A stretch of 64,000 bases of DNA, from assembly GCA_028015205.1 (NCBI GenBank), contig CM051514.1, positions 44,036,150 to 44,100,149 on the forward strand, given 5' to 3'. The translations under genes and the position numbers were made by a program. Within the stretch, counting starts at the first letter, position 1; every line of letters begins with the position of its first letter. Below, piece after piece: positions 4,672 to 60,400 of this stretch. This DNA comes from Mytilisepta virgata. Its lineage: Eukaryota > Mollusca > Bivalvia > Mytilida > Mytilidae. The notes beneath the pieces were generated by a model. That model was not told the DNA's origin, did not search any database, and saw only the letters and a list, made by a program, of their open reading frames with translations.

Positions 4672-4740
4672 TTTCGTGAAAATAGTAACAAACAGAAATC
4701 GTGAAACCGGTAACATAGAGAATTTGTCAAACTAGTACCA
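4672..4740 (+). repeat. GTGAAA-type minisatellite, left portion
   Basis: Two to three degenerate units of the form TCGTGAAA-n-GGTAACATAGAGAA. The same minisatellite in the same orientation resumes at 18583. The array therefore seems to have been split by the insertion of the element at 4741-18582. Confidence 0.7.
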
Positions 4741-5115
4741 CACTGATAATTTTAAATAGTCACCATGACAAATTAAAGTAGTCACCATGACTGTCCTACC
4801 AACGACTATGCTATTAGTCACTTTGACTAACAACTTAGTCAATTTTGACTAATAAATAGTCAGTGTGACTACCTTAACAGTCATGGATGACTATATTAAA
4901 CTAGTCATATTGACTATGCAAATAGTCAATGTTGACTATTTAACTAGTCATTATGACTAGAAATGTTAGTCAACACGACTAACTTGGGTAGTCATAATGA
5001 CTGTCCTACCAAAGACTATCCAGATAGTCACTCCTCAGTGCTAACTAGTCATCCTGACTATGGAATTAGTCACACTGACCACTTCTTCAGTCAAATCTGA
5101 CTAATAAATTTGGTC
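4741..5115. repeat. Left terminal and subterminal palindrome array
   Basis: About 15 copies of TAGTCA-(3-4 nt)-TGACTA, spaced roughly 20-24 bp apart, follow the CACTG terminus. The central bases vary (CCA, CTT, ATTT, GTG, TAT, ATGT, TTA and others) while the TAGTCA/TGACTA half-sites are conserved, as expected for binding sites of a dimeric DNA-binding protein. A TGTCCTACCAANGACTAT phrase occurs twice (about 4792 and 5001), which suggests higher-order duplication within the array. Confidence 0.85.
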
Positions 5116-5594
5116 ATTTAAAATCTTTAGTTTTTTTTTCCTGTTTTGTTATTAAACTCATTTGTTTTGTTGGAAAACATTCACAAATAGAACATTAAAG
5201 CAACAAACATTGTTGACTCGTCCATATTTTACAAAATCATCTGAAATCCTTGGGGGGGGGGGCATTTTTCTAGTGAGAGAAAAATTGGATTCCTATATAT
5301 GTTTTAAATGAAACTGTGCGTGGTAAAGGTGCTCTCTTATTTTTTGATTGTTGCCTCATCTTTATTTACCCAAATATATCATTTTGTCATCTTCTGTATG
5401 TTGTCAAATTCTACTTATATTAGATCTTGTTAAAGCTTTTGACGAAATCAAATCAATTGCTGGTCTAAGAAATCGAAACTGTTGTTTTGGAAAGAAAAGT
5501 GAATTTTTATCAATGCCAACAATGCAACTGACTGACTGAAACATTCATTTTCACTACAACATGTTAACATAGTAAAAGCATCAAAACATTTAAC
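5116..5594. other. Element interior, non-coding, left of accessory gene
   Basis: A G-run lies near 5251-5260. The 63-codon plus-strand ORF at 5348-5539 has no recognisable features. This is probably the 3' flank of the minus-strand accessory gene. Confidence 0.5.
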
Positions 5595-5600
5595 TTTATT
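5595..5600 (-). terminator. Polyadenylation signal AATAAA of accessory gene
   Basis: AATAAA on the minus strand, about 170 bp downstream of the stop at 5769-5771. It is the nearest canonical signal after the last exon of the SAMD3-like gene. Confidence 0.5.
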
Positions 5601-5768
5601 TTAATATCAAATCAAGAAAATTATCTATCTTTTTTTTTTGTTTTGATTTACAATAGATTCACATAAATTTATATTGATTTCAGCGTTCAATAACGCCAAC
5701 ATATTTTATCCTGGAAAATAAGGATAAATTAATTGTTAAGGACAGATAAGTAGCCGTAAACAAACATC

Positions 5769-8700
5769 TTAAACAGTTTTCTTTTTCAATTCCTGATTCA
5801 ACATTGACACAACATTCAAAATCCTTTTGTCTATTGCCATTTCATCATCCACTTTTAGCCAAACTCTCTGGCAAAAAATCAAAGTTTTTTCACATTTTTT
5901 GGGGTATGCCAAGTTAAAGGCATAAATTGCCATCAACAGTGCCAAAACGGCTTCTGTCAAGTTTGATGCATTGCAAACTACATAGTTTTCAACTAGAACG
6001 TTGAATGAGTTCTCCTCTCTGGACAGAATGTCTCCACTTTGGCATATCACTATTCTAGGAGGCTGAAAATACAAATATTCAAATTAATTTCCTTGAAAAT
6101 AAAGAACAACTTAAGTTCAGGAAATATGTTATATACTTTACCAATAACCACTAATACTTTAATTTTATGTCAACAATAAAGTTTGACGAACTCACACAGA
6201 CAACCAATATATTGCAGTTGTCGAGAAAGTAACAAAGCTTTTATTTTACCATAGTCACAGCTTCATGTATTTGGAAGATGTCTTTTGATCACATGTATAC
6301 ACAATCTCCGAAACAGAGGTGCATAGCTCTTCCTTCGTCAGAATATCACCTCTGCCACACCGGATGGAGAGCTTTCCCTCATAATAATCCCATAATGCAT
6401 TATTTTTTTTCTCCATGGTGCAGGGCCTAAACTGGTCCCGGTTGTATATATGTACGAGTAGTATTCCCTACGACCGGGAAACAGACTGCTTATTTGTAAT
6501 GGTGGGCGAGGTGTGGCAGAGGTGTAATCATCTGACAAGGGAGGATATGTAACCTCTGTTTCGGAGATTGATGTATACAATGTGTATTTTCTGCAAACCA
6601 AATCAATTAGTGATTGACATCTCCTTAAAAGAAACATGTCTTGAGTTCACATGGATACCCATTGGTCAGTGGCTTTATACAGCTTAAACTTTGTAATTGA
6701 TTGACAGCTATGTTGTTAAATCCTTTGTTCGCCTTTTCACGCCTACCACCTTTATCAAATCTTATCCTTCGATGTTAAGGAAAGTATACATTGTATAGTA
6801 CATTTATCAAAAGAAGTAAACTGTGACTTTAGGATAATAGAAGTTTTGTCACGTTCTCGACCGCTGCAATAACAGTATCCCTTCAAAGCAGTGCTGCCTT
6901 TTTATAAATATAAGAAAAAAAAGAAATCATAGTGACAAGTAAAAAAAAAACACTAGATGAAACAATATTAAATATTTAAACATATGAAGTATGACCTGTT
7001 TGATTGCTTGGTGGTGTTTGGTCGGTGTTTTCTGTCATTGTGGGAGTTTCCTGTTATTTTTTAATTAGAAGATGTTACAACTAAAAAAACTATTTTTCAT
7101 TTAGCTCTGACCTTAAATGATTTGGTATTATAGTCTAGAAACTTTGAGTTTTCATTGTTCTCAACCAAACATTTACTTTGTGATTTCCACTTTTTCAATG
7201 TGATCTGTACTGAAGAGGCATAAATTGCTGAAATGACCAAATATAGAAGCTAAATTAACTGCAATATCAGTATTTTGTTGTTTTACCTCTTCACTGGTTG
7301 TTATTTCTTCTTTTGTCATAACCAACTGCTGGAAGTTTTCTTTAAGCAATAAAGGTAGGTTTATCAGAACTGCACATCTTTTGGCAGCTAAAATATAAAA
7401 ATTTATATAAGAATATAAAAGAAGTTATACGTACATGTACAGGTTTATGTTTATGTTTGTTATTTGACTTAGTTAAATTATGTCGTATTTCAATGCAAAT
7501 ATTTGAAATGTATTGTCTGAAAGTTGGTAGCCCACTTGTGCCTTTCATTTATACATGTACGTCATTTATGAATATTAGAGGATTCTAATAAATAATATTC
7601 GACATTGGGAAAATACTTATCAGATCTACTGCTTAACCGATTACCGGTAGTATCCAATAATTTACATATACTTTCAATATAATTCCTTACCTTCTCTTTC
7701 AATTTCATTTCTCATGGTAGCTCTTCTAGCCATAATATCATCTCCATGTTTTGCTCCTTTCTTCCCCTTCGTTAATTTCAATATGGCATCACCATATTCA
7801 TCAATGCCATGTAGGAAAGCCTCCTCAACACCAAAGTCTTTCAATGATGGGCCTAACCGGATGAATTCTTTCATTAGCTGAAAAAGATATTGTAATGATT
7901 TGCTTTGTCAAATTTAAATTCAGTAATGAAGGTTACAGTTGGACTTTGATGGCTAAAACCTCAAAGAGACCAATGAAAACAATTTTGAGTTAGAGGGTTG
8001 AATTAACTATAAAGTTAAGAAAAAAGACAACGGAAAGGTTAAAAATATCAATGATGTTTCAGTCATTGCAGTTTGAGTCATCAAAGTTCTACCATTTCTT
8101 TAAGAAATGTATTTCATGTAAATGTATCAGAATCGCACACAAAAGTGTGGTGTGAATTAAAAGCTACATCCTTCATGTAATTACATTTGGACTTTTATTG
8201 TTCATATCTTCATTTAAAAGAAGTTAAAAATCATTCTTAATAAATACCTGTAAACATACAATTATAGAGTTTTGTTTGTTTATGTTTTCACATGCCTTCC
8301 ACTACTGTAAAGCGGGAAATTTTCATGCAGTCTTTATTTCAGTTTTCAACATTAATTTCAGAATATGCGGTCTTGAATTTGCATTTTTCAGTTGATCTAC
8401 TTATAATCATCCAATCACATCAAAATAGTTGTGTTAGTTTTATTTTCATGCTTCAACCCCTTAATGCAATTATAAAATTGAACCAAAAAATTTCATGTTT
8501 ATAGTACCTGTATTCAAGTTCAAAGTTCAATATTTAATGTTTTATTTTTCAGGAATGTCAAATATAAAATTGAAATATTTTCCAACTTACTCAAGTTAGC
8601 ATCAATATCATTGATCATGCAAGGTCAATTCGTTGAAGCATGCAACCTGGAAAAAAAATTACAATAGTTAAGTAACCTAACTCTAATGTAACACTTTATG

Positions 8701-11410
8701 TAAAGTCCATTTTTATTGAACGAGGCGACGTCTAAATTTTCATGGTATTCATTTATAATACATGATTGATAGTGTGGAATTTACAGCACATGCACACTCG
8801 TGTTTCAAAAATAAAAAATAAACATCTTTTCAACAGTTACATTAGAATTGAGATAACAGTATTTAACAGTCTTAATTTATTTTCAAATTTTAAGGCATCA
8901 ATCGAAAATTTTATGGTTGCAAATTCCTGTTTAATGGCACCTCTGAAGCTAAGTCATTTCTTTAAATTGGTGAGCATCAATTCTCCAATTGATGCTGTGA
9001 AATTTTTAAATACAATACAGTTATCTCCCAACTACAGCTAATTGTAGAATCTAACATTTTATGGGTAGACAAATGGTCATTTGAAATATAGCATGCATTT
9101 ATACATAAAGACAAATGTTATTTTCTTTGGTCAGATATAAACACATGCAAAAGAATGGCCCATAGATTTTACTCAAACAGTACAATTTTCAATTTAAACC
9201 TGTTAACAAAATATAGGTAGAGTACCTCAGATGGATTCTTCAGCCAAGGATAGTCTGATAAAATGTCTGCAACCCCTTTCTGTAAGGTTACCACCATATC
9301 TCGTCTTTTATACAATGTCAAATCCATAACTTCATTCACACGTTCCATATCATGATTCTCCTTTTTTTTGTACTCTTTTTTCAACCATTCAATGTGCATT
9401 TCAGACGTTGCAGCATCTTCTGATTCAGGACAAGGGGGAAGGTAATTTGACAGTCCCCATGTTGTTGGTCCTTCAATGGTTGGGATAACTGCCTTCTTTT
9501 GCCTCTTATAGGCTTGCACCTCTGGCAAACCTTTGTCTGCTCTCTTCCGGCTATTCTGAAATTTATGCAAAAGCCTCTCTTTCCAAAGATCCTGTAAATT
9601 CAACAAATAAAATGTGAAAAACTTAATTCTAGTGTAACTTTATAGGTGTTTACTTTGCACATGGAAGTTGTTGTCAGTCAAATTACAGCATCATTTATCA
9701 TAAGAGAATTATTTTAGTTTTCACCACTCGTAACAATGGAATAGTGTTTGTTTTCAAGTTTCGTTAGTTAATTTTGCTTTGTTAGAAATTTGCACAAGAC
9801 TTGTAAAATTATTTGATAATTACCCTAGCACTCTGTAGGGCTACACCTTCCCCTGTAGCCAGGTGTGGGTATTCTCTAAACAGGCTGTCAATTATGGCAT
9901 TATACTGGTCAGCTGTTGGATACCTAAAACAAACAGTGACAAAAAAAAAAACAATTTATTAATCAGTACTTGTAAGAGGAATAATTTGTCATCCCGTATT
10001 TGATGAATATTTAATAATCTCTTATTTCATCAACAAAATACTCATTTATTATTTTTTTTGTTTCAATAAAGCTTAACATCCCAATAAAAGTTTTATAAAA
10101 CCATTTGCAAAAGCATAAGCTTAAAAAAAAAGACTTTTGAAAATCTTAGAACACACTAATAAAGGTAATAATACTTACAATCCACCTTCATGCATAGTGA
10201 CATCAGTATATATTCCACCCAATATTTCTTTCCTGTCTTTTTTCTCTATTGGTAGGTGACTTTCCAACTTAACAACCAATCCTTGGGAAAAGGTGTGTTT
10301 GGGTATGCTATATTCTTTTGGCCAAGGTTTCTTGCTTCTGCAAAAAAGAACCCTAATGTCAATACATATGACATGCATAAGAAATATTGGAACTGTGCTA
10401 TCAAATTATTCGTATTATTATACATTATTTTAATACAATGTCCTTCATTTACTTTGTATCCAATTCTTCTTATATTCATTTGCAACATCATACACAATTG
10501 ACGGTACTGCTGACGTCACAGATAATTTGAAGGTAGTTTTGGCAAGCCATATCGTACCTTCCGTGTAACATGGCAGACTCATCTCAGTACTATTTAAGAC
10601 AACTTCAGATCATCGAAACCCTGTTTATATTATATCAGAATCAAAACAATTGGTGATTTACTGGTTCGTCCCTTATGACAAACATTTTACCCTGGACACT
10701 CAAGAGTAAGATATTTGTCAGAAAGGGCCAACATGTGGTAAAATCAATAACTTCCAATTATTAAATTCTGGGTGAGAGATAGCAAACCAGACCTCAATGC
10801 AATATTAAATGATGTAAACAAAAAAATATACATACCTTTCAAAACTGCTTGCTGCAAACAAATTCCTCTTTCTTGCATTTTCAGATGGTACAGCTTGTTC
10901 AAGTGTTTCAGGTAATGCAGTTGTAAGTAGATGAATGGGAGTTGTAGATCTAGATCCAGGCTGTGATTCAGACCCACTGAGATTTGGTGTTGTTGACCTT
11001 GATTTTAGAGTTAGTGTTGATGACCTTGATTTTGGTGTTTCTATACTTTGTGTACTCTTGTACATGGAAGGTGTTCTTAGCAATGGCAGCTCAACTTCAT
11101 TTCTATCCATAAAATCTTCAGCTAAATCTCTTTTATCTCCTTGATCCTCCTTTGTTTCATTGATAATGATGACATTATCAACTTCTGATTGAGATCTCAC
11201 TTTACTGAAACCATCTTCTTTATCTAGTACATCTAAATTATCATTGTCAAGGTCAAGCCATTCTTGAAATCTGTCATCAAAGTACTGCAGGAAAAATTCC
11301 CCCTTTTGAAGAGAATACTTTTCAACAAATACTTTTGTGATACTTTCAAGGGATACTTCACACACAACCACCTTTTGTCTCTTTCCGTGAGAAATCAACA
11401 GTTGAACCAT
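5769..11410 (-). CDS. SAMD3-like accessory protein of the CACTA-like element (7 exons, 593 aa)
   Basis: Exons on the minus strand: 11410-10836, 10337-10179, 9923-9824, 9591-9226, 7877-7691, 7387-7287 and 6062-5769. Every junction has GT-AG (for example GTATGTA, GTAAGTAT, GTAAGG) and all phases join without a stop. Start chosen: ATG at 11410 (MVQLLISHGK), just after an acceptor (TTATATTTCAG) at the 5' side, so a 5'UTR intron is likely. Residues 1-85 resemble a PB1/ubiquitin-like fold (GEFFLQYFDDRFQEWLDLD); about 90-190 is Ser/Thr-rich linker; about 192-245 has a WPKEYSIPKHTFSQG motif; 250-460 is a charged helical core; 497-593 contains the conserved YAFNLAYPKKCEKTL block. This architecture matches, from memory, the multicopy 'SAMD3-like' uncharacterised proteins of fish and invertebrates; no SAM domain is visible here. 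Function is unknown. By position it could be the TnpA-like helper that binds the subterminal repeats (inference). Confidence 0.82.
6302..6570. mobile_element. 269-bp MITE with CAATCTCCG ends and 9-bp TSD
   Basis: A perfect 19-bp terminal inverted repeat starts CAATCTCCGAAACAGAGGT, with weaker inverted similarity for about 70 bp. It is flanked by an exact 9-bp direct repeat ATGTATACA (6293-6301 and 6571-6579). It lies in the last intron (6063-7286) of the accessory gene, so it is a nested, younger insertion that does not disturb splice sites. A 9-bp duplication suggests a Mutator-like or Merlin-like origin. The ends resemble those of the two MITEs at 34459 and 45142 (all begin CAATCT). Confidence 0.85.
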
Positions 11411-11809
11411 TATTTCTGAAATATAAGTTTTTTTACATAAAACAGAATATATAACAATGAAGTGACTATATACAAAATAAACCAACATTCCATGATTAGT
11501 ATGGACATGTCATAGGTACTGAATGAAATGTACTGATACCTTAACCCCCCCCCCCCCCCCCATAAATTGAGACAGATCACCGTTTCCGTTTCACCTGAGC
11601 AATTTAAAGACAAGAGTAGTGAAAACTACTGCAAATGTAAATTTATACACATATGCTTTTCTCTATGTCTAGCTGGCTACTCTTCTCAGGAAACCATGAG
11701 TAAATCTGGCTCACCCAAATTTTTGTGAAAAAAAAAATGGTATCATGCATTTTATCATATGTTCAAGTACCAACATGACCAATACAACTATAAATCTACT
11801 GTATAAAAT

Positions 11810-14272
11810 TCAAAACAAAAATTTGTACCTCATCACAACAATTCTTAAATCTCTGTGTTTATACAGTCCTATTATTTGACTATCAGTAATTTGATCTACT
11901 TTCTTTAGCTCATAATCTGAAGTGTCATCAACAATGAAACCATAAAAATGCCGATTAAAAGAGCTTGTTTTCAACTTTTTGCCAAGCACAAAAGGAACCT
12001 CATGAACCACAAAACATTGTTCAATTTTCATGAATTGATATAATGAGTCTTTGAAGTCTGTAACTAAGCAACAACCTTTTATGTACCGAATGCCTCTAAA
12101 AGTCAGTGACCTACACTGATATACCTCTGTAGAATCACCAATGTGGGGTGTCAATAGCCTTTGAACTTTATTTTTCAACAAGACAACTGGTACCATGCTC
12201 CCTCCAACAGTCTGTAGTTTGTCAGGGTTTAAAAATCTATCTTGACTTTGGGAAACACATTGTAAATATTGATGTCTTGTTGCTAGGGATTTGCAAATAT
12301 TTCTCTTGCATTTATTTCTTTGGGCAAGTTCTTTAAAATAACTGTGCTTTGCCTCAAATCGTAATGTTTGCAAATGAATAAGTGGGCCAAATTGAAGAAT
12401 TTGGTTAGGATAATGCAACATAAAATGAAATTTTGGTTTCAAGTGTTCATCTGGGAATTCTCTTAAAAATGATTCAAGAAAATCCTCAATAAGCTCTTTC
12501 AGATACTCAATATGACCTCTGCCTAATGCTGGAGCACACACATAAAAAACAACATCATGCAAAGATAACAGTGTTTCCCACTTTGGGTCTCCTACTGGAA
12601 CAAAATCAGCAATCATTAAAGGTAGAAATCTAAAAAGACACCATGACTGAGATGCAGACTGACTAACTTTAAGTTTTGCTAATGTTGATGGAAGCGTTTT
12701 TGGTCTATTTGCTCTGTCGACTTCAGAGAAGAAGAAATCAACTATTTGCCCATTCAGAAAATCCAAACTAAAAAATCCACTCTGAACACAATATTTCAAT
12801 ACATGGGTAATCACAACTGGTACAACTCCCTCAAATAAGTCATGGGCTAAATCAGAAGGCATCCCACCAATCACGTGATAATAATTGAGATCATTCAGGG
12901 TCGATTTCCCTTTCAATCCATATGTAGTTGAAAGATCTTGATTCAAAGAAACAATCCTAACTTGTTGATCATACATTTCCCTAGTTCTTATTGGTAAATT
13001 GTAACAAGAAACTCTTTGTTGCATTTGAGGTTTAGGTAGAAAACAAAATCGACAGCACCTTGCAGTTGTGAAACTTTCAACAAATCCACCAATAGCATGT
13101 GCCCCTAGATTGTCACCTATAACAGCAATAACACTACCTTGCAATGTGATGTTCCCTTCAGGTTTTTCAATTTGTACCCCATCAGTTTCTAAAGTTTTTA
13201 TATCTTGAATCAAAGGTTCTAAGACGTCTTTGAACCCAAAGGCTTTTAGGTGGTCTGATTCTACCAATGCTACAAGCTGAATAACATGAAGCTGTGATCG
13301 ATACTTTGGTGGGAGGTTTGCAAGTATCATATAGAATGCACCCAATTTATACTTTTTTACTGCATGCCCAATAGGATTTGAGACAGTAAAATCATCATAA
13401 AATAAAAGAATTTGTACTTTATTTCTGCCTTGTGCGAAAAAATTATTATTATTGCAGACTGAACCATCACAGATATCTCTTAATATATTATCATTTGATT
13501 TATGACCATTAATCACATATGAAAACACATCTTCGTGTGATAGAAGAGTTTTCAATGTCTCTAAAATAGGTACATATTGCATGGGACACGGCTTTTCATT
13601 CAAATTATCATTCAAAATAAACTCTACTGGTTCAACAATTTTTAAATGCTCTTTTGCATATTTGTTCAACTTTGTACTACTACTGAAATTAAGGAAGGCA
13701 TTTTCAACATCTGAATTTTCTTTCATCAATGACTTGCATTGATTTTTTACTTTCAAATTTGCATCCAAATCACAAAGAACCTTATCTAATTTGCGGCTTA
13801 CTTCAGCTTGGTGAAGACAAAACATATCACTGAATTCTTGCACAATTGTTGGCAAAACATTTGCAGGAAGTTTGCATTTTTCCCTAACATTTAACAAAAA
13901 CAATGCCATTTTCTCCTGGAAATCTACATGTACTTGTGTTTCAATTATATTTTGGTGTTCCTCATTTACCACACCTAAATTGTCTACATGAGCATCTTCA
14001 CCATCATCAACCTCTTGATGTGCTGTTAAATTAAGATATGAATCAGGTTCCTTTTGACTTTCACGGAACCTTGATAGATGCAAGTTGTAAAAATTGACAT
14101 GTTTTCGTCTGATGTGTTTTGTTAAAGAAAATACCAAGCTGTAATTTTTTTGACAACTGTCTACCCCACAAGTAATTTTAAAGCCATTCTCATGACTATG
14201 CACAAATCTATAGTGCAATAATAGATTTTGGTATGTGCGACACAACACTGCACATCGTGAACATGGAAACAT
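11810..14272 (-). CDS. Zinc-finger transposase-like protein (Tnp2/CACTA-type, ~820 aa)
   Basis: Single open frame. The first ATG after a TTG-initiated extension is at 14272 (MFPCSRCAV). The N-terminus has two C2H2 fingers: C4-x2-C7...H-x4-H, then C-x4-C-x12-H-x4-H ending IRRKH. A charged linker follows. The catalytic-like core has LLFYDDFTVSNPIG near residue 295, LGAFYMILANLPPKYRSQLH just after it, VIGDNLGAHAIGGF near 394 followed by a CCRFC pair, and SDLAHDLFEGVVP near 476. The acidic residues of the YDD, GDN and HDLFEG blocks are candidates for a DDE-type triad, though this was not verified by alignment. A C-terminal LRFEAKHSYFKELA block at about 647 is typical of this metazoan family. The stop is TGA at 11810-11812. 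A possible splice donor (GAG|GTACAA) lies just before the stop, but joining it to the next gene breaks frame, so I treat the ORF as a separate gene. No stops or frameshifts interrupt it. Confidence 0.78.
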   Translation of the reverse strand: MFPCSRCAVLCRTYQNLLLHYRFVHSHENGFKITCGVDSCQKNYSLVFSLTKHIRRKHVNFYNLHLSRFRESQKEPDSYLNLTAHQEVDDGEDAHVDNLGVVNEEHQNIIETQVHVDFQEKMALFLLNVREKCKLPANVLPTIVQEFSDMFCLHQAEVSRKLDKVLCDLDANLKVKNQCKSLMKENSDVENAFLNFSSSTKLNKYAKEHLKIVEPVEFILNDNLNEKPCPMQYVPILETLKTLLSHEDVFSYVINGHKSNDNILRDICDGSVCNNNNFFAQGRNKVQILLFYDDFTVSNPIGHAVKKYKLGAFYMILANLPPKYRSQLHVIQLVALVESDHLKAFGFKDVLEPLIQDIKTLETDGVQIEKPEGNITLQGSVIAVIGDNLGAHAIGGFVESFTTARCCRFCFLPKPQMQQRVSCYNLPIRTREMYDQQVRIVSLNQDLSTTYGLKGKSTLNDLNYYHVIGGMPSDLAHDLFEGVVPVVITHVLKYCVQSGFFSLDFLNGQIVDFFFSEVDRANRPKTLPSTLAKLKVSQSASQSWCLFRFLPLMIADFVPVGDPKWETLLSLHDVVFYVCAPALGRGHIEYLKELIEDFLESFLREFPDEHLKPKFHFMLHYPNQILQFGPLIHLQTLRFEAKHSYFKELAQRNKCKRNICKSLATRHQYLQCVSQSQDRFLNPDKLQTVGGSMVPVVLLKNKVQRLLTPHIGDSTEVYQCRSLTFRGIRYIKGCCLVTDFKDSLYQFMKIEQCFVVHEVPFVLGKKLKTSSFNRHFYGFIVDDTSDYELKKVDQITDSQIIGLYKHRDLRIVVMRYKFLF

Positions 14273-14500
14273 TGTCCAACAGTTGAGAAGAAAACTATTT
14301 TGACAGTGCAAAGTACATGTAAACTACATTATACTTGCCTTGAAATATACTGTATTAGTATAAACAGGATATTATGGAGTACAATTTGAATTGTAATTAA
14401 CAGTCTCAAATCTGAAAAAAATATAATTTGCATAAATTTGTAAGATTTACTATCTTTGTTAGTGACAGGACAAAGTCCAACTGTCCCCGGTTCTTATACA

Positions 14501-14758
14501 CCCGTGTATTCTGATACTCAGAACCGATGCTGGCACCAAAAACACTGGTCACGTGACTTGTAATGCATGTGTTGATTGGTCAGGCTTAAAAAAAATGTGG
14601 TAAATGACACAACGGAACACAGTTTTCAGTGCATCTGACTGCACCATGATTTATTGTGACTATAAATTCAAATCTGACCAATCAAAACACCCGTTACAAG
14701 TCAACTGAACCACACCTTTTAGTGCCCGCACTGGTTCCCAGTATCCGATTATACAGTG
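14501..14758. repeat. Imperfect inverted repeat upstream of the transposase gene
   Basis: The left arm (about 14501-14586) and right arm (about 14674-14758) are inverted copies at roughly 75-80 percent identity. Shared blocks include GATACT-n-GAACC, GACTTGTAA and TGATTGGTCAG. Each arm contains an inverted CCAAT box (ATTGG). No target duplication was found. It is either an old MITE or a duplicated promoter module for the minus-strand gene starting at 14272. Confidence 0.6.
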
Positions 14759-15395
14759 TGCTTTAGTTAATAGTTTTGTTTGCTTGGTGCATATTGAGTG
14801 ATGTTTGGTTTGTATTTCTGTTATCATGGGGGTTCTTCTTCAACTAAATTGCTCACTTCTGTATGACGGGTGCAATACAAAGAGCAGAGGATGCTAACTT
14901 TTCTGGAACACCTGATGATACTCCATTTGGTTTTAATTAAGCTCACATTTTTAGTGCTTTGTTTTCCTTTTTATTTGTGTTGCCTGGATTATCTTTTTTT
15001 TTGCATTTTGCAACTGTATTTATTTGTTGATGTTTCTTATACACCTGTCATGTTTTCACATACACATAACTGGTAATGAGGACACTTAAAATTACAAGTC
15101 ACCTGCACCACATCTTAGTTCCATTTTCTGAATACATGTGAAATTAAAATTTTTGTTAAATATTTTTAATTTATTCAATTAAGGTTTCAATTTATCAAAT
15201 AAAATTAAAAAACAATGACATTTTGTAAATTCTGTTAAAACAAGTTCAACATCTACAAGTAAAACATTCCGCAGTTCAACATTATTCATTTGTTCATAAT
15301 AATATACCAGTACAAGTAAGATTGTTCATGATAGTATAAGCTCGTTCAACAGTGACATAGTTTATAGAGGTTTCATTACTGAACAGTTTTCTTTA
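14759..15395. other. Non-coding spacer between two minus-strand element genes
   Basis: No coding signal was found. A minus-strand AATAAA occurs near 15170, about 225 bp after the stop of the small gene at 15396, and could serve as its polyadenylation signal. Confidence 0.45.
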
Positions 15396-15851
15396 CTAAA
15401 ACTTCATTTTTCTTATTCTAAGGGCACGTTTTTGTAACATTTTCAGTTCTTCCCATTTGACTAAGAGTGGATCATTGGCTTCTGTATAATGTTGTAAAAT
15501 GCCATGATGATTTTTGTCCCTGGGCTTAACACTTGGTTTGCTCGAGCTTTGACTTGATTTTACGGAGTGAGAAGAACTAGCTTTGTCGTCAAAAATACTA
15601 TTGCTGCAGCTTGATGTAGTTGATGACGAATCGCAATGTTTTTCATTAGAACAGTTAGTTATTGTCACAGCCTCTTCTGTTAATTTCAAATTATTCGAAA
15701 CGCCTTCTTGGCTATTAGAAGTACTAATTTTGTCCTCGGTAATGGGGATAAATGTTGGATTGCCTGTCATTGCATTTTTCTTTTTTAAAATCTGATTCTT
15801 CTTGCGCCTCTTCTGGTATTCTTTCCTCTTGATTTTATTGTGTTTACCCAT
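15396..15851 (-). CDS. Small Lys/Arg- and Ser-rich protein, 151 aa, unknown function
   Basis: ATG at 15851 (MGKHNKIKRKEYQKRRKK) lies 23 bases after a good acceptor (TTATCTTTAG, exon start about 15874). This is preferred over the longer frame, whose N-terminus is minisatellite sequence. Residues 1-30 are strongly basic and nuclear-localisation-like. The middle (about 75-110) is a Ser-rich run. The C-terminus is basic and helical (WEELKMLQKRALRIRKMKF), then TAG. No family was recognised. A candidate 5' exon ending at 17743 (GAG|GTAACT) would make the higher-order minisatellite an intron. It contains an ATG (17792) opening a short frame that is not in phase with this CDS. Being inside the transposon, it may be a third element protein. 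Confidence 0.5.
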   Translation of the reverse strand: MGKHNKIKRKEYQKRRKKNQILKKKNAMTGNPTFIPITEDKISTSNSQEGVSNNLKLTEEAVTITNCSNEKHCDSSSTTSSCSNSIFDDKASSSHSVKSSQSSSKPSVKPRDKNHHGILQHYTEANDPLLVKWEELKMLQKRALRIRKMKF

Positions 15852-16038
15852 TTTCAGAATTTTTTTTGGAAAATCTAAAGATAAAAAGGCAATATGTTTA
15901 CTATAAATAACTGAGGTGGTTTTAAGGGGGTCTTGATGTGTGCCTTTCCCAAAATCCCAGACCAGGCTTAATTTTCGAGTCTTCTGACAAAGTTTAGTCA
16001 GGTTCTTTGTAATTATAATCTCATTCAAAAATTTTACC

Positions 16039-17152
16039 AAAATGTACCACAAGCACCGAGATTTGCATTCACTCTTCTTGAGACACAAATGTTTCACAAG
16101 CACCAAGACTTTGTCATTCACTCAACTTGAGACACAAAAAAAATGTACCATAAGCACCGAGATAATGACAATTACTCATGTTGAGAAATAAAATGTACCA
16201 CAAGCACCGAGATCAGCATTCACTCTTTTTTAGACACAAAATGTTTCACAAGCACCAAGATTTTGTCATTCACTCAACTTGAGACACAAAAAAAAAATGT
16301 ACCATAAGCACCGAGATAATGACAATTACTCATCTTGAGAAATAAAATGTACCACAAGCACCGAGATTTGCATTCACTCTTCTTGAGACACAAAATGTTT
16401 CACAAGCACCAAGATTTTGTCATTCACTCAACTTGAGACACAAAAAAAATGTACCACAAGCACCGAGATAATAACAATTACTCATCTTGAGAAATAAAAT
16501 GTACCACAAGCACCGAGATTTGCATTCACTCTTCTTGAGACACAAAATGTTTCACAAGCACCAAGATTTTGTCATTCACTCAACTTGAGACACAAAAAAA
16601 ATGTACCATAAGCACCGAGATAATGACAATTACTATTCACTCTTCTTGAGACACAAAATGTTTCACAAGCACCAAGATTTTGTCATTCACTCAACTTGAG
16701 ACACAAAAAAAATGTACCACAAGCACCGAGATAATAACAATTACTCATCTTGAGAAATAAAATGTACCACAAGCACCGAGATTTGCATTCACTCTTCTTG
16801 AGACACAAAATGTTTCACAAGCACCAAGATTTTGTCATTCACTCAACTTGAGACACAAAAAAAATGTACCATAAGCACCGAGATAATGACAATTACTCAT
16901 CTTGAGAAATAAAATGTACCACAAGCACCGAGATTTGCATTCACTCTTCTTGAGACACAAAATGTTTCACAAGCACCAAGATTTTGTCATTCACTCAACT
17001 TGAGACACAAAAAAATGTACCATAAGCACCGAGATAATGACAATTACTTATCTTGAGAAATAAAATGTACCACAAGCACCTAGATTCATGACATTCACTC
17101 TTCTTGAGGCACAAAAGGCACTACATGCACCGACATTTAACCACCTTGAGAA
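16039..17152. repeat. Higher-order minisatellite (3 x ~50-bp subunits, ~7 copies)
   Basis: Three related ~50-bp subunits alternate: A (ATGTACCACAAGCACCGAG), B (ATGTTTCACAAGCACCAAG) and C (ATGTACCATAAGCACCGAG with GAGATAATGACAATTACTC). The A-B-C trimer of about 152 bp repeats about seven times, with one C/A fusion near 16620-16640 from unequal exchange. It lies inside the transposon, immediately 5' of the small basic gene and possibly in its first intron. Confidence 0.9.
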
Positions 17153-18436
17153 ACATTGAAAATACACAAAAATTGCAACGCCTTTTAAATTTTTTTGCTG
17201 TATTGCTATCTATATAGTGTGATTAAAGTGGGAAGTGGAACGGACAGATTTTCGAAGGCTTAAAATAGGATTATGTACCAATTTTTGTCAATTTGTGTCA
17301 TTATTACATGTATGTTATGTTTGTTTTTATGTTATACATCTGTTTTTATATTTGGTTAAAAGCTCTTCAGAGTTTGTATGCATCGAATCAAAATAAATAT
17401 TTCTTATCTTATAACAAGAATGAGGGTGCTTAGGGATTCAGGGAATTGTTAAAAAAATAGTTTCTATTTATTTTGCTGTAACTCAATTGTAATGGTAAAA
17501 TAGCATCAAAGGCTATTTTAATTGTTCTAATATGAGCCTAAACTTCTCTAAACTGAAATAGGTTCCGAGCCAACTTGTGAAAATGAGAAGCCTTGGGAAT
17601 GGCCATAGCCGGGCATAGGCAAAGCACATACACAACTGCACTTGACTCTGTAGTCATGTAGGTGTTATTCCACCTTTTCAAGAGCACCTCTGTAAATAAA
17701 CTGACAGGCTATTTCTGCACATGCATGGTCATAACTAGTTACCTCGATGATAAGTAGTGAAACAACGCTGTGATATTGATATTCTTGTCCATGTCCGCTG
17801 GCAATGTCAACAAACAGAAAATAATACCCAAAACAACATCGTACCCAACTTCCGGTTAACAGTTTTCGTGAACCAAGACTATTATATATGATATTCGCTT
17901 ATTTTAGACCATTTTTGCATAATAATAGTATATAAAATCATTGACAGAGATAAAATTTATCGTCATTGATTCTAAATTGAGGATGGCACGAGATTCCGGA
18001 CCCCCCCCCCTTTTTGCTCTCTCTGGCTGCCTTGTCGTTACGCTAACATTTACGTTATGCCTGTCACATATATCACTCGGGAACTACAGATTCAAAAACC
18101 ATGAACGAAACTGTAACATAATCTTTTGTGGTTGTTTCATGCAAATCGTTAAACCTTTTAGCGGTTCCCCCTTTTCGACTTCAATGACGATTTGTCGATT
18201 TAATCTACACAAATCGGCACAAACTAATTGTTATGTAGGCTCCCTTTTAATTATTTCAAGAATCAATATAAAATTACAATGTTAAATCAATTGTATACTT
18301 ACATTAGACAAATTTTTAAACAATTACAGCTTGTAGTTTCTTGTTCGAACAAAGAGCGAATGAGCCCGCGAAAATATGCGCGTGAAATCCGATACTTCCT
18401 GGGCACACCACGTGGTGTACGACTATCCGCATGGTC
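17153..18436. other. Right interior of the element; candidate 5' exon and promoter side
   Basis: No long ORF of note. A possible minus-strand 5' exon spans about 17820-17743: an ATG in good context at 17792, then 16 codons, then the donor GAG|GTAACT. As the upstream end for all three minus-strand genes, this is the likely promoter side. A C-run lies at about 18000-18010. The 114- and 83-codon ORFs at 17941-18479 have no recognisable content. Confidence 0.35.
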
Positions 18437-18582
18437 AATAGATAAGTTGACCACGTGGGTAGTCCCTCTGACTACCTAGATAGTCATGTTGACTAAGTTA
18501 ATAGTCGTTTCTCTGTCTGACTACCCATAACCGGGATTTTGACTAGTTGATTTGTCACAGTGACTAATTAAAATTATCAGTG
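18437..18582. repeat. Right subterminal array and terminal inverted repeat
   Basis: Five to six AGTCA/TGACTA palindromic units precede the terminus TTAAAATTATCAGTG, whose reverse complement matches the left end at 4741. The array is shorter than the left one (about 145 against 375 bp). Such asymmetry is common for subterminal regions of CACTA elements. Confidence 0.8.
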
Positions 18583-18957
18583 CATAGAGAAATCGTGAAA
18601 CTGTCAAACAGAGAAATCGTGAAACAGGTAACATACAGAATTCGGGACCAAAAACATAGAGAATTCGTGAAACTAGTAAGTTAAACACAAATAATTCGTG
18701 AAAAACAGTAACAGATAATTCGTGAAAAACGTTAATCATAGACATTTCATAATACCTTAGAGAATTCGTGAAGTTAAAAACACAGAGTATTCGTGAAAAC
18801 AGGAACAGAAAGAATTCGTGAAAAACAGTAATATATTATAGAGAATTCATGAATGCAGTAACACAGAGAATTCGTGATAAACAGTAACATAGAGAATTCG
18901 TGAAAAACAGTTACACAGAAATTCGTGAAAAACAGTAACACAGAGAACAAATAGTAC
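18583..18957 (+). repeat. GTGAAA-type minisatellite, right portion
   Basis: About 12-13 units of AGAGAATTCGTGAAAAACAG plus a TAACAC-like spacer, period about 25-30 bp. It is in the same orientation as 4672-4740, so the two pieces formed one array before the transposon inserted. Confidence 0.85.
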
Positions 18958-23600: not shown

Positions 23601-25744
23601 CATAAATCAAGTTTGGTCAATATGCCATTTGGAAGTTATATCATAGCAAACATTTTCTAGAACCACTAAATGTGCACTGTCTGCGATGATGTTTTGTTTT
23701 TTGTTTTTTTTCTCCATATAAATGTTTGATCAACTAATCTTACAGAGCCTGATACATAAATGGCATACTTGAATCTAAATATTTATACAGAAATGAAATA
23801 TCAAAGCTTAGTATCTAGTTAAATTCAGCAACATGAAATTCCGACTTAAATTTTGTAGCACGTATGATAAAGAGTGTTACCAAATAACAAAATAACGAGT
23901 AAGAAGTATGATAATGCCACATGTTGGTCAACTCCAAGAATTGCCAAATAATTTAATTGTCTAACGGACAACCTACCATAAAGCCATCATAAAAATTCTC
24001 TTGAACTATCAAGAATACTACCTTTCATGGTTGTCCATCAAATTTCAAACTGTGATTGAAAATTTATTCGTTTCCACTCAGATTGTTGAAGATATTCAAA
24101 ATTTGATAGATAATTACATTACAAATTACATATGTCATTAGATGTTTGCTAGATCGAAGAAGACATTTCAAAGTAAGCGTTATATTTATAAGATACTTAA
24201 GCTATGTAAAAACCGTTAAATCCGATTCTCGATGCGGTCAGCAATTTCCTATTTTTTTATATATGGAAAATGCTTTGACGTCACAAGTCAGTTCGAAAAG
24301 GCCGTTTGGCGTCAGAAACTAGAAATGTCCCATAATTAAATTTGTTTTAGAATTAAAATCGATTCCATTAGGATATTTCAAACAATGTTTTCTTATAGAG
24401 AATTGCTAGGAAATTGGCTGCTTGTTTACATAGTTCTATAATTGAAATTAGAACAATAAAATTGAAAACACATCAAGTTTTCTCTTGTGTAAATAATAAC
24501 CACTATATCTTGTTTAATCACAAGTAATTGAAAAAAATATTTCACCATTGCTAGTATCTTATCTCAATCTATTTCTGTGGTAATGATACATAATCTAAAA
24601 ACACAAACAGGAGTTTAAAATTATAGTAAGTTCTTATCATTTTTTATCCTGCGACTCTGCTACTAGTATATGAGCAGCCAGAATGTATGTTTAAAAGTTA
24701 TATACAGTTCCTGGCGGTATATCACGTTTGCTGTGACGTCAGAGTACATATCTGTATGATGTCGTGAAATTCAGTCTTCTGACGTTGCTCGCTTCATGCA
24801 GAAATTCACTATTTTCCAGTAATCTTTGACAGATTTTTATGTTGCAGAATAAACAGAATTTGTTTACATCATGTTGTTGTCTCTTAATAGCGAGCGCAGC
24901 GAGCGCTATAGGAGCATATGGATTTTCTACGTATGGGTCATTTAGAAAAGTCTTTGTTTAATGGGGGCAGCCATATTGTGCTATATACTAAAGCTACAAA
25001 ATGTTTCGTTCGCCGGAAACGAAGTAAGGGAAATAACTTGCTTCAAATTATAATTTTAGAGTCAGAACCGTGATACCGGAAATGAGTTTCCGGAATGGTC
25101 TATTGCTGTGCTCGCATCATTGGTCACGCCAACAGCATATTATAAAATATATTCGAATCCGGCATGAAAAAGGTGAGAAAAGTTTTACAAGCTTCGCATT
25201 TCTACCTGTTGATATTACGAGACAATGTACTCATATTCTATACATGGAGTACATTAAAAGTCTTAGAAACCTTTGACTTTATCTTGATCAGTGTTATGTT
25301 CAGCCTTTGTAATGTCATTAATACGTACAGAATTGCCGTCATCACGATTATTGTTACGAAGTATCTTTCTGAGTTAATTCTTAACTGAGTGTTCTTGCAG
25401 TGTGACTTTTTACGCTATGGGCTGTCTAATGTTGTGTTGTTGTTTTTTTTCTGGTTTGCCTTTGCTATGGTGTGTGCTTTCTTAAGTTTCACTTAATTTT
25501 TTGTTTTGTATTTATCGTTTTATGTTCTCAAGTGTTGGCCTTGTATCTTGTAATTTCCATTCTCGAACCCATTGCTTCAGTAATCTTTGTCGTTATTTGT
25601 AACGTTGCTTTTCCTCTAATTTGACGTCTCTTTTTTTTCTAAAATTCAGTACGAATTAAATATCAATAAAATTACTTGTTAAGATGAAAGTTAAATTAGT
25701 TTGTTTTTATCAGGCAGTCATATACGAATAAATGAAATTATTTG
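23601..25744. other. Intergenic stretch without recognisable gene
   Basis: Only short AT-rich ORFs. A GCGAGCGCAGCGAGCGC motif occurs near 24892, a self-similar phrase that looks like part of a dispersed repeat. No splice-consistent exon was found. Confidence 0.45.
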
Positions 25745-26996
25745 TGACACAATTATTACTTATCACACAAAGTCTCACATCGTCACCTCCTTTACAAACT
25801 CAAATTCTTGGTATTGAAAATAACACACTAAATTGGATTCAGGCATTCCTACAGGACAGAACACAAACAGTAGTCATTAATGGCATTTCCTCCACCCCAG
25901 TACCCGTAACATCTGGTGTACCACAAGATACAGTATTGGGCCCTATACTGTTTCTTATCTATATAAATGACTTACCGGAATACCTACAACACAGCAAGCT
26001 TAGACTCTTTGCTGATGACAGCATAATTTACAGGGAAATAGAAACACAAGATGATTGTCATAAACTACAACTTGACCTTGAATCAGCAGCTCAATGGGAG
26101 TCAGATTGGCTTATGGCATTTCACCCTGATAAATGTACAAACCTTTCCATCTCTCAAAAGAAAAATAACTACCGGCATAATTACATCCTCCACAATCACA
26201 TTCTCGAATCAGTTACATCCGCAAAATATCTAGGCATCACCTTACAATCAAATCTGAAGTGGAACAAACATATAGACAACATAGCATCTAATGGGAACAG
26301 ATCACTTGGTTTTCTAAAAAGAAATTTAAAAATTACAAACACAGAAACAAAATCAAGAGCATACCAGGCACTAGTAAGACCCAAACTGGAATATAGTTGT
26401 AGTGTCTGGGACCCCCATATGAAAGAACAACAGATAAAATTAGAAAAGGTACAGAGACGCGCTGCTCGTTATGTACACAACAACTACGATGTCACAAACA
26501 TGCTAAATCAGTTGAAATGGCCACCACTAGCTGAGAGACGCTTAAAAACCACTTATTTTATTTTATAAAGTAATACATTGTCTTGTAGCCATTCCATCGC
26601 ATATTCTTGAACAAACAGACAGCAGAACTAGACAAAATCATACTCAGACATACAGACACATCCAAACCTCCAAGGACACATACAAATGGTCATACTTCCC
26701 GCGAACAATTATTCAATGGAATTTACTACCACAAACTGTAATTGAAACCACCACTGTTGACAGCTTTAGAGATGAGCTAACACCAGCTGTTCTCTCTAGC
26801 TTCAAATAAATAAACAAATTCAAACAAAACATGTACATATAGTTTTAATCACAAATCTGTATATACAAACACTCCAATTGTTATAAAATATTTCTATAAA
26901 TTTTGTATAAATTTTTGTCAATCACGCATGCGCAACAACATGTATTCTTCAGTATTGAAGCCTTGTTGACCTTAAAGAAGAAGAAGAAGAAGAATT
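25745..26996 (+). pseudogene. 5'-truncated Jockey/CR1-like LINE reverse transcriptase
   Basis: The main frame (to 26568) reads through the RT palm: TLNWIQAFLQDRTQTVVING, GVPQDTVLGPILFLIYINDL, the catalytic LFADDS near 26010, then a KYLGI and PKLEYSCSVWDPH thumb region. At the 5' side the HKVSHRHLLYKL stretch is in another frame than what follows, so there is a frameshift near 25795. A second frameshift near 26560 moves the remaining C-terminal region (WNLLPQTVIETTTVDSFRDE) to another frame, ending at 26808. GVPQD replaces the usual GVPQG. The element ends in an (AAG)n tail at about 26965-26993. The endonuclease domain and the N-terminal RT are missing. It is a dead copy. Confidence 0.88.
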
Positions 26997-54459: not shown

Positions 54460-57400
54460 TGTATGTTTTATTGAATTAATTAATAAAAATATGTTTACAA
54501 TAAACCCTGACGGGTTGAGCAAATACAAACATTAACATATTATACACAATATATAAAAACATAACACAAGATACATACATAAATAAAGTTATTATAGTTC
54601 CAAATATGTTTGCACTTGACCAATATATGTCTCTCATTTTCGCAATTCAAAAGAATGCTTTATAAAATCAACAGCACTGGTCAAACACTGCTTTATAAAA
54701 TCAACATCACTGGATAAACACTGCTTTATAAAATCAACAGCACTGGACAAAAACTGCTTTATAAAATCAACATCACTGGACAAACACTGCTTTATAAAAT
54801 CAACATCACTGGACAAACACTGCTTTATAAAATCAACAGCACTGGACAAACACTGCTTTATAAAATCAACAGCACTGGACAAACACTGCTTTATAAAATC
54901 AACAGCACTGGACAAACACTGCTTTATAAAATCAACAGCACTGGACAAACACTGCTTTATAAAATCAACAGCACTGGACAAACACTGCTTTATAAAATCA
55001 ACAGCACTGGACAAACACTGCTTTATAAAATCAACAGCACTGGACAAACACTGCTTTATAAAATCAACAGCACTGGACAAACACTGCTTTATAAAATCAA
55101 CAGCACTGGACAAACACTGCTTTATAAAATCAACAGCACTGGACAAACACTGCTTTATAAAATCAACAGCACTGGACAAACACTGCTTTATAAAATCAAC
55201 AGCACTGGACAAACACTGCTTTATAAAATCAACAGCACTGGACAAACACTGCTTTATAAAATCAACAGCACTGGACAAACACTGCTTTATAAAATCAACA
55301 GCACTGGACAAACACTGCTTTATAAAATCAACAGCACTGGACAAACACTGCTTTATAAAATCAACAGCACTGGACAAACACTGCTTTATAAAATCAACAG
55401 CACTGGACAAACACTGCTTTATAAAATCAACAGCACTGGACAAACACTGCTTTATAAAATCAACAGCACTGGACAAACACTGCTTTATAAAATCAACAGC
55501 ACTGGACAAACACTGCTTTATAAAATCAACAGCACTGGACAAACACTGCTTTATAAAATCAACAGCACTGGACAAACACTGCTTTATAAAATCAACAGCA
55601 CTGGACAAACACTGCTTTATAAAATCAACAGCACTGGACAAACACTGCTTTATAAAATCAACATCACTGGACAAACACTGCTTTATAAAATCAACATCAC
55701 TGGACAAACACTGCTTTATAAAATCAACAGCACTGGACAAACACTGCTTTATAAAATCAACAGCACTGGACAAACACTGCTTTATAAAATCAACAGCACT
55801 GGACAAACACTGCTTTATAAAATCAACAGCACTGGACAAACACTGCTTTATAAAATCAACAGCACTGGACAAACACTGCTTTATAAAATCAACAGCACTG
55901 GACAAACACTGCTTTATAAAATCAACAGCACTGGACAAACACTGCTTTATAAAATCAACAGCACTGGACAAACACTGCTTTATAAAATCAACAGCACTGG
56001 ACAAACACTGCTTTATAAAATCAACAGCACTGGACAAACACTGCTTTATAAAATCAACAGCACTGGACAAACACTGCTTTATAAAATCAACAGCACTGGA
56101 CAAACACTGCTTTATAAAATCAACAGCACTGGACAAACACTGCTTTATAAAATCAACAGCACTGGACAAACACTGCTTTATAAAATCAACAGCACTGGAC
56201 AAACACTGCTTTATAAAATCAACAGCACTGGACAAACACTGCTTTATAAAATCAACAGCACTGGACAAACACTGCTTTATAAAATCAACAGCACTGGACA
56301 AACACTGCTTTATAAAATCAACAGCACTGGACAAACACTGCTTTATAAAATCAACAGCACTGGACAAACACTGCTTTATAAAATCAACAGCACTGGACAA
56401 ACACTGCTTTATAAAATCAACAGCACTGGACAAACACTGCTTTATAAAATCAACAGCACTGGACAAACACTGCTTTATAAAATCAACAGCACTGGACAAA
56501 CACTGCTTTATAAAATCAACAGCACTGGACAAACACTGCTTTATAAAATCAACAGCACTGGACAAACACTGCTTTATAAAATCAACAGCACTGGACAAAC
56601 ACTGCTTTATAAAATCAACAGCACTGGACAAACACTGCTTTATAAAATCAACAGCACTGGACAAACACTGCTTTATAAAATCAACAGCACTGGACAAACA
56701 CTGCTTTATAAAATCAACAGCACTGGACAAACACTGCTTTATAAAATCAACAGCACTGGACAAACACTGCTTTATAAAATCAACAGCACTGGACAAACAC
56801 TGCTTTATAAAATCAACAGCACTGGACAAACACTGCTTTATAAAATCAACATCACTGGACAAACACTGCTTTATAAAATCAACAGCACTGGACAAACACT
56901 GCTTTATAAAATCAACAGCACTGGACAAACACTGCTTTATAAAATCAACAGCACTGGACAAACACTGCTTTATAAAATCAACATCACTGGACAAACACTG
57001 CTTTATAAAATCAACATCACTGGACAAACACTGCTTTATAAAATCAACATCACTGGACAAACACTGCTTTATAAAATCAACATCACTGGACAAACACTGC
57101 TTTATAAAATCAACAGCACTGGACAAACACTGCTTTATAAAATCAACAGCACTGGACAAACACTGCTTTATAAAATCAACAGCACTGGACAAACACTGCT
57201 TTATAAAATCAACAGCACTGGACAAACACTGCTTTATAAAATCAACAGCACTGGACAAACACTGCTTTATAAAATCAACAGCACTGGACAAACACTGCTT
57301 TATAAAATCAACAGCACTGGACAAACACTGCTTTATAAAATCAACAGCACTGGACAAACACTGCTTTATAAAATCAACAGCACTGGACAAACACTGCTTT

Positions 57401-60400
57401 ATAAAATCAACAGCACTGGACAAACACTGCTTTATAAAATCAACAGCACTGGACAAACACTGCTTTATAAAATCAACAGCACTGGACAAACACTGCTTTA
57501 TAAAATCAACATCACTGGACAAACACTGCTTTATAAAATCAACATCACTGGACAAACACTGCTTTATAAAATCAACATCACTGGACAAACACTGCTTTAT
57601 AAAATCAACATCACTGGACAAACACTGCTTTATAAAATCAACAGCACTGGACAAACACTGCTTTATAAAATCAACAGCACTGGACAAACACTGCTTTATA
57701 AAATCAACAGCACTGGACAAACACTGCTTTATAAAATCAACAGCACTGGACAAACACTGCTTTATAAAATCAACAGCACTGGACAAACACTGCTTTATAA
57801 AATCAACAGCACTGGACAAACACTGCTTTATAAAATCAACAGCACTGGACAAACACTGCTTTATAAAATCAACAGCACTGGACAAACACTGCTTTATAAA
57901 ATCAACAGCACTGGACAAACACTGCTTTATAAAATCAACAGCACTGGACAAACACTGCTTTATAAAATCAACAGCACTGGACAAACACTGCTTTATAAAA
58001 TCAACAGCACTGGACAAACACTGCTTTATAAAATCAACAGCACTGGACAAACACTGCTTTATAAAATCAACAGCACTGGACAAACACTGCTTTATAAAAT
58101 CAACAGCACTGGACAAACACTGCTTTATAAAATCAACATCACTGGACAAACACTGCTTTATAAAATCAACATCACTGGACAAACACTGCTTTATAAAATC
58201 AACATCACTGGACAAACACTGCTTTATAAAATCAACATCACTGGACAAACACTGCTTTATAAAATCAACATCACTGGACAAACACTGCTTTATAAAATCA
58301 ACATCACTGGACATACACTGCTTTATAAAATCAACATCACTGGACAAACACTGCTTTATAAAATCAACATCACTGGACAAACACTGCTTTGTAAAATCAA
58401 CATCACTGGACAAACACTGCTTTGTAAAATCAACATCACTGGACAAACACTGCTTTGTAAAATCAACAGCACTGGACAAACACTGCTTTGTAAAATCAAC
58501 AGCACTGGACAAACACTGCTATATAAAATCAACAGCACTGGACAAACACTGCTTTATAAAATCAACAGCACTGGACAAACACTGCTTTATAAAATCAACA
58601 TCACTGGACAAACACTGCTTTATAAAATCAACATCACTGGACAAACACTGCTTTATAAAATCAACATTACTGGACAAACACTGCTTTATAAAATCAACAT
58701 CACTGGACAAACACTGCTTTATAAAATCAACAGCACTGGACAAACACTGCTTTATAAAATCAACAGCACTGGACAAACACTGCTTTATAAAATCAACATC
58801 ACTGGACAAACACTGCTTTATAAAATCAACATCACTGGACAAACACTGCTTTATAAAATCAACATCACTGGACAAACACTGCTTTATAAAATCAACAGCA
58901 CTGGACAAACACTGCTTTATAAAATCAACAGCACTGGACAAACACTGCTTTATAAAATCAACAGCACTGGACAAACACTGCTTTATAAAATCAACAGCAC
59001 TGGACAAACACTGCTTTATAAAATCAACAGCACTGGACAAACACTGCTTTATAAAATCAACAGCACTGGACAAACACTGCTTTATAAAATCAACAGCACT
59101 GGACAAACACTGCTTTATAAAATCAACATTACTGGACAAACACTGCTTTATAAAATCAACAGCACTGGACAAACACTGCTATATAAAATCAACAGCACTG
59201 GACAAACACTGCTTTATAAAATCAACAGCACTGGACAAACACTGCTTTATAAAATCAACAGCACTGGACAAACACTGCTTTATAAAATCAACATTACTGG
59301 ACAAACACTGCTTTATAAAATCAACATTACTGGACAAACACTGCTTTATAAAATCAACATCACTGGACAAACACTGCTTTATAAAATCAACATCACTGGA
59401 CAAACACTGCTTTATAAAATCAACATCACTGGACAAACACTGCTTTATAAAATCAACAGCACTGGACAAACACTGCTTTATAAAATCAACAGCACTGGAC
59501 AAACACTGCTTTATAAAATCAACATCACTGGACAAACACTGCTTTATAAAATCAACATCACTGGACAAACACTGCTTTATAAAATCAACATCACTGGACA
59601 AACACTGCTTTATAAAATCAACAGCACTGGACAAACACTGCTTTATAAAATCAACAGCACTGGACAAACACTGCTTTATAAAATCAACAGCACTGGACAA
59701 ACACTGCTTTATAAAATCAACATCACTGGACAAACACTGCTTTATAAAATCAACAGCACTGGACAAACACTGCTTTATAAAATCAACAGCACTGGACAAA
59801 CACTGCTTTATAAAATCAACATCACTGGACAAACACTGCTTTATAAAATCAACATCACTGGACAAACACTGCTTTATAAAATCAACATCACTGGACAAAC
59901 ACTGCTTTATAAAATCAACATCACTGGACAAACACTGCTTTATAAAATCAATAGCACTGGACAAAACATTCATATCTGGATTTAGAATAATTCGTAATTT
60001 ATCTAGAGAGCCAAGCTGGTTATGATTAGGGAGCACATTTATAATATCATTTTGAAACTTTTTTCTTATTTCCTTATTGATTTTGCTATTTAAGCAAAAA
60101 TGATATTCGTCATCAAGAAAATTACAAATTTTGCATGTTCTTTGTTTTTATAGCGTCCCAGCGTCCTTGTGATCACTGATACAATTTTGTTTAATAATCT
60201 ACGGCTGTTAAAGTAATAGTCTGCTGGAACTAAATCTGCTTTTTCAATTTACTGTATAAGTATAATTTTGAACTATTGTCAAATTTGTTTATTTTCTCTA
60301 GAAAGAGTTCATCATAAAAGCCTTTAATGGCTTATGCTCTTATTTTTCACTTTATTCTTTACTTCTTGATAAGTTATGTCAGTATTTTCAAGATCATTTT

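Follow-up and report, generated by a model that had tools for sequence, protein, structure and literature searches.

Plant CACTA transposons in the strict sense have termini reading CACTA...TAGTG (PMC4158355), together with a 3-bp target duplication. In the maize Spm system, two proteins, TnpA and TnpD, are both needed and interact with each other (PMC1636069, PMC4158355), and TnpA on DNA is stabilised by TnpD (PMC1636069). The animal TRC elements, including SmTRC1, encode Transposase_21 transposases, and splicing yields shorter proteins; the authors of the SmTRC1 study found that its extra proteins had no relatives among other elements of animals or fungi, and animal CACTA relatives are described with a conserved transposase and without a recognisable partner protein (PMC1636069). 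A broader clade, CMC(T), which includes animal EnSpm, is characterised by CA..TG ends, duplications of 2-5 bp, and C(2)C and H(3-4)H motifs between the second D and the E of the DDE transposase (PMC12730594). Here we analyzed a 64-kb stretch of the genome of the mussel Mytilisepta virgata (contig CM051514.1, positions 44,036,150 to 44,100,149; hereafter the window), in which a 13.8-kb element carries a transposase gene and an accessory gene. With a probability of about 0.72, positions 4741-18582 represent one cut-and-paste animal CACTA/EnSpm-like (CMC) transposon, inserted in a 25-bp minisatellite with duplication of CA and encoding a TnpA-like accessory protein.

Element boundaries and insertion site

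A first-pass annotation of this DNA had described 23-bp inverted termini with one mismatch, a CA target duplication, and a minisatellite unit that is restored when the element is removed. All three were borne out, and the following features delimit the element:

4739..4740, no strand: left copy of the target duplication, CA (direct reading of flank)
4741..4763, plus strand: left terminal inverted repeat, 23 bp, similarity reaching 4776 (repeat comparison, pattern scan)
4757..5081, plus strand: left subterminal repeats, 10 TAGTCANNNTGACTA-like sites (motif scan)
18460..18566, plus strand: right subterminal repeats, 3 sites (motif scan)
18560..18582, minus strand: right terminal inverted repeat, 23 bp, similarity from 18547 (repeat comparison, pattern scan)
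18583..18584, no strand: right copy of the target duplication, CA (direct reading of flank)

The termini read CACTG...CAGTG and end exactly at 4741 and 18582, where CACTGATAATTTTAAATAGTCAC at the left is the reverse complement of the right end with one mismatch. They match at 22 of 23 positions, and at 32 of 36 when extended to 36 bp. Allowing up to three mismatches, the terminal pattern was found at exactly two sites in the window and in none of 100 shuffles. The subterminal motif TAGTCANNNTGACTA (up to two mismatches) occurred 14 times in the window, 13 of them inside the element ends (10 left, 3 right), compared with a mean of 3.9 and a maximum of 9 when the whole window was shuffled. These palindromes crowd the outermost 120-340 bp of each end. 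They have the form TAGTCA-N3-TGACTA, and the inverted ends, the CA duplication, and these repeats exceed chance.

The element lies in a CGTGAAA minisatellite whose spacings nearby are mostly 24-25 bp. Joining the flanks with a single CA gave 16 of 25 matches at lag 25, i.e. a 25-bp step across the empty site; with nothing removed the best lag was 27 (18/25), and after removal of 3 bp it was 24 (15/25). Since lags 25 and 24 both fit, the period of the minisatellite alone leaves the length of the duplication unfixed. Exact repetition at the flanks is limited to CA (2 bp), although the period would also allow removal of 3 bp. The 13.8-kb element at 4741-18582 was confirmed, its reported boundaries and, apart from a doubtful third gene, its gene content being upheld.

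The transposase

A single open reading frame (ORF) encodes the transposase:

11810..14272, minus strand: transposase, single ORF of 820 aa with a pair of C2H2-like fingers, DDE residues plus C(2)C and H(3)H, and a BAH-like C-terminus
11843-12200, minus strand: BAH-like fold at the transposase C-terminus, residues 683-810 (structure comparison)

It runs unbroken from 14272 to 11810, as had been claimed, and all seven catalytic or motif residues checked were present (D293, D387, C407xxC410, H616xxxH620, and E640). The Transposase_21 (tnp2) profile matched it with E = 0.001 and 18.8 bits, under the cut-off of 28.6; the relative P0010 likewise stayed under it at 25.4 bits. Structure comparison of the predicted model gave fold matches to RAG1, the recombinase of antibody genes, and to Transib, pointing to a RAG1/Transib-type fold, and motifs and fold together support placement in the CMC/RAG1 group. 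The BAH-like C-terminus was matched by the final 13 among 50 VIA rows; for 7lmk, 7lmm, and 6vil, a BAH domain is named in the structure title, and we take the other structures among the 13 to be BAH-domain ones as well.

The protein search, with a query without the last 10 residues, gave 302 relatives, 120 of which were listed. For the M. edulis relative P0003, no PDB sequence relative was found at E < 0.05. Neither the transposase nor the accessory protein described below had a match elsewhere in the window, and scans of viral contigs with the transposase, with the accessory relative P0001, and with alignment A1 found no relative.

The accessory gene

Downstream of the transposase on the same strand lies the accessory gene, annotated from a splice model and the alignment to P0001 of M. 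galloprovincialis, together with a small nested element:

10836..11410, minus strand: exon 1, with start codon, PB1-like region (judged from P0001), then Ser/Thr-rich linker
10179..10337, minus strand: exon 2
9824..9923, minus strand: exon 3
9226..9591, minus strand: exon 4, including a basic stretch with 11 K/R in 32 residues
7691..7877, minus strand: exon 5
7287..7387, minus strand: exon 6
5772..6062, minus strand: exon 7; stop at 5769-5771
6293..6579, no strand: small element in the last intron; its inverted ends CAATCTCCGAAACAGAGGT match perfectly over 19 bp, and a 9-bp direct repeat, ATGTATACA, flanks it (repeat comparison)

The proposal of a seven-exon gene with intact splicing was upheld: between 11410 and 5772 (minus strand), six GT/AG introns separate seven exons that form an open frame of 593 aa. 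The nested element in the last intron is 269 bp long. Taken with the transposase, the description of the element as 'potentially autonomous' means unbroken reading frames and nothing more.

The accessory protein aligned end to end with P0001 at 51% identity. P0001 bears the RefSeq name 'SAMD3-like', and the first-pass annotation had called the product a 'SAMD3-like' helper. By sequence, this likeness is supported in the C-terminal region only: profile searches detected no SAM domain in the accessory protein (including exon 1) or in P0001, and the N-terminus of P0001 was instead predicted to adopt a PB1-like beta-grasp fold. At the positions of the PB1 beta1 lysine and of the acidic core, D-x-D/E-x-D/E, P0001 has K3 and DVEVE; the accessory protein has Q3 and DDRFQE there, and DLDND farther along. 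The predicted structure for the accessory body (mean pLDDT 55, pTM 0.30) was interpretable only in residues 1-75, apart from a confident helical stretch at about residues 170-270 that had no structural match. P0001 had no PDB sequence relative at E < 0.05. Searches scored about 8,000 candidates each, the window protein yielding at least one relative and P0001 as query at least one more.

Recurrence of the gene pair

The combination of a transposase with a 'SAMD3-like' gene, singled out in the first-pass annotation, recurs beyond the window. One M. coruscus gene model, P0013, was matched by both the transposase and the accessory searches. Its first part is a transposase almost identical to P0003, and its last 330 residues correspond to the accessory body (E = 1e-46 against the accessory protein of the window); the order is that of the window, i.e. 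transposase, then accessory, on the same strand. Coming from a gene model, the fusion itself may be artificial.

Apart from P0013, C-terminal extensions of more than 100 residues occurred in just two of the 120 transposase relatives listed, namely P0066 and P0091 of the sea cucumber Holothuria leucospilota, which lie on contigs of different size and represent two loci. A model of the bivalve accessory proteins scored 11.4 bits against the P0066 extension, above all 2000 shuffles (1,040 reported; best 5.0), versus at best 0.8 bits against the C-termini of the 117 other transposase relatives. For P0091 the score was 4.1 bits, reached by 4 of 2000 shuffles. Using hhalign, the Holothuria extension showed the same blocks in the same order (score 29.9 versus a best of 21.95 in 50 shuffles; probability only 7%), and plain BLAST of the extensions against the accessory protein was not significant. 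A relationship between the Holothuria tail and the accessory protein is likely but unproven. Sequence comparison supports a recurring pairing of transposase and accessory gene, seen in the mussel gene model and apparently in the sea cucumber.

P0091 starts with a SAM-like domain ahead of the transposase (SAM_1, E = 0.0015, 19.3 bits, cut-off 23). A SAM-like domain, a transposase, and an accessory-like tail occur here in one gene model, which suggests a shared transcription unit. Vertebrate SAMD3 has a SAM-plus-tail layout; speculatively, the SAM exon of P0091, if real, would give this SAM-plus-body layout when spliced to the tail.

In a transposase tree of 44 rows, the window sequence fell within a bivalve group with Saccostrea and Mytilus (support 100/99), and both Holothuria sequences joined fish sequences (100/100). 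The accessory label required three changes on this tree, and 49 of 500 shuffles were as low, i.e. carriers were not significantly clustered. A missing label carries little meaning, since in this analysis the label is visible only where gene models are fused.

Comparison with described systems

The element shares with plant CACTA and maize Spm/En (TnpD plus TnpA) the CAC..GTG ends and subterminal repeats, and it encodes a second protein beside a transposase that resembles the Transposase_21 type below the profile cut-off. It differs in its ends and duplication, CACTG and 2 bp rather than CACTA and 3 bp. The designation CACTA/EnSpm-like holds at the level of the superfamily, as the CMC/RAG1 group, but not in the strict plant sense. 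With TRC elements it shares an animal host and a transposase apparently of the Transposase_21 type, whereas TRC termini begin with CCC and SmTRC1 measures 4.5 kb (PMC1636069). Agreement with CMC(T) and animal EnSpm extends to CA..TG ends, a small duplication, a DDE transposase whose C(2)C and H(3-4)H motifs fall between the second D and the E, and a predicted fold matching RAG1 and Transib. In the available parts of PMC12730594, however, members are described without this accessory gene, and a BAH-like C-terminus lies outside the definition given there. As for animal SAMD3 and 'SAMD3-like' proteins, the accessory protein is linked to them through the name of P0001, but the N-terminal SAM domain of that family was detected in neither protein.

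Among the best literature matches (Repbase Reports lying outside the search), no paper joined SAMD3 with a transposon, and titles and abstract openings of the best 30 of 277 SAMD3 papers did not mention transposons. Likewise, no BAH domain beside this transposon group was found among the best matches. While the superfamily is already known, the recurring animal accessory gene appears to be new.

A third ORF and other features of the window

Of the three genes proposed for the element, transposase and accessory gene stood, and the third is doubtful:

15396..15851, minus strand: third ORF of 151 aa, rich in lysine at its start and in serine through its body, doubtful as a gene (ORF list, coding tests)
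16039..17133, plus strand: tandem array inside the element, 21 copies of a unit of about 50 bp, lying between third ORF and right end (tandem-repeat scan)

With the tandem array excluded, the surrounding open stretch of 241 codons was unmatched in 200 shuffles (maximum 162), and a 152-codon stretch was reached in 3 of 200. The codon score of the third ORF (0.034) fell inside the range set by 24 noncoding pieces, whose highest value was 0.04. No significant match was found among 121 collected proteins, the comparison being confined to these without a database search.

A genome-contig scan with the transposase returned a single locus, on a 4.5-kb contig (QNXQ01000188.1) labelled as an Aquifex metagenome-assembled genome. 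The transposase relative encoded there is of the animal CACTA type, is split between two frames, and extends almost to the end of the contig, which carries no significant match to the accessory protein or the third ORF. The contig is probably a eukaryotic contaminant.

Elsewhere in the window, a 33-bp unit is repeated about 161 times with 99% matches across 54656-59965, with several frames open on both strands, and a 278-aa ORF at 25732-26568 (plus strand) resembles, by eye, the end of a non-LTR reverse transcriptase.

Proposed mechanism and alternative explanations

Judging from family and motifs, the transposase would cut at the CACTG ends. By analogy with TnpA of maize Spm, the basic middle part of the accessory protein may bind the repeated TAGTCA-N3-TGACTA palindromes, and its N-terminal PB1-like module (SAM in the sea cucumber relative) could chain copies head to tail, so that the chained copies would bring the two element ends together. 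The protein perhaps also regulates transcription of the element, and the transposase may be directed to certain kinds of chromatin by its BAH-like C-terminus.

The chief alternative is that a CACTA element captured a host SAMD3-like gene by transduplication, as in plant Pack-CACTA, and carries it as cargo without a role in transposition. Such capture is known for plant CACTA elements: PMC8616336 treats PB1 together with CACTA, describing captured PB1 exons in MUGB and Pack-CACTA, with the PB1 exon probably captured by MUGB precursors. The host-type name of P0001 and the scattered accessory carriers in the transposase tree would also fit. However, the gene has its full length, none of its introns or frames is disrupted, and it recurs behind the transposase, in the same orientation, in M. 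coruscus and, apparently, at two loci of Holothuria. A full-length gene recurring at the same place speaks against capture without excluding it, and we consider this explanation unlikely, though a serious competitor.

Much less probable is a chance arrangement, composite or nested, in which a SAMD3-like gene of the host and an independent transposase copy came to lie between the ends and the 13.8 kb would not move as a unit. A single copy is known, and the last accessory intron does hold a nested element; yet one matching pair of ends, the CA duplication, and the restored repeat register enclose both genes, the same pair recurs in a mussel, and neither protein was matched elsewhere in the window. 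Least probable of all is that the element is dead and its frames only appear intact, a reading for which the mismatch in the terminal repeats and the nested insertion could be cited, but which sits poorly with about 1,400 codons free of stops and frameshifts and a full set of checked catalytic and motif residues.

A wider history may also be sketched, although we hold it only tentatively and the odds are against it. An ancient animal two-component CACTA system would have combined a RAG1-like, BAH-tailed transposase with a modular helper, in which a self-associating head could be exchanged (PB1 in bivalves, SAM in echinoderms) and the SAMD3-type body was shared; on this view, vertebrate SAMD3 would be a transposon helper that became domesticated and was left without its transposase.

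The gene pairing hints at an animal version of the maize two-protein system. If a partner gene recurs, the existence of an animal TnpA becomes open to direct testing, and a RAG1-fold transposon with a second subunit is at hand for comparison with RAG1/RAG2. The element, if intact, is a possible transposition system for cell culture, and a recurring partner would also suggest an origin for the poorly understood SAMD3 family.
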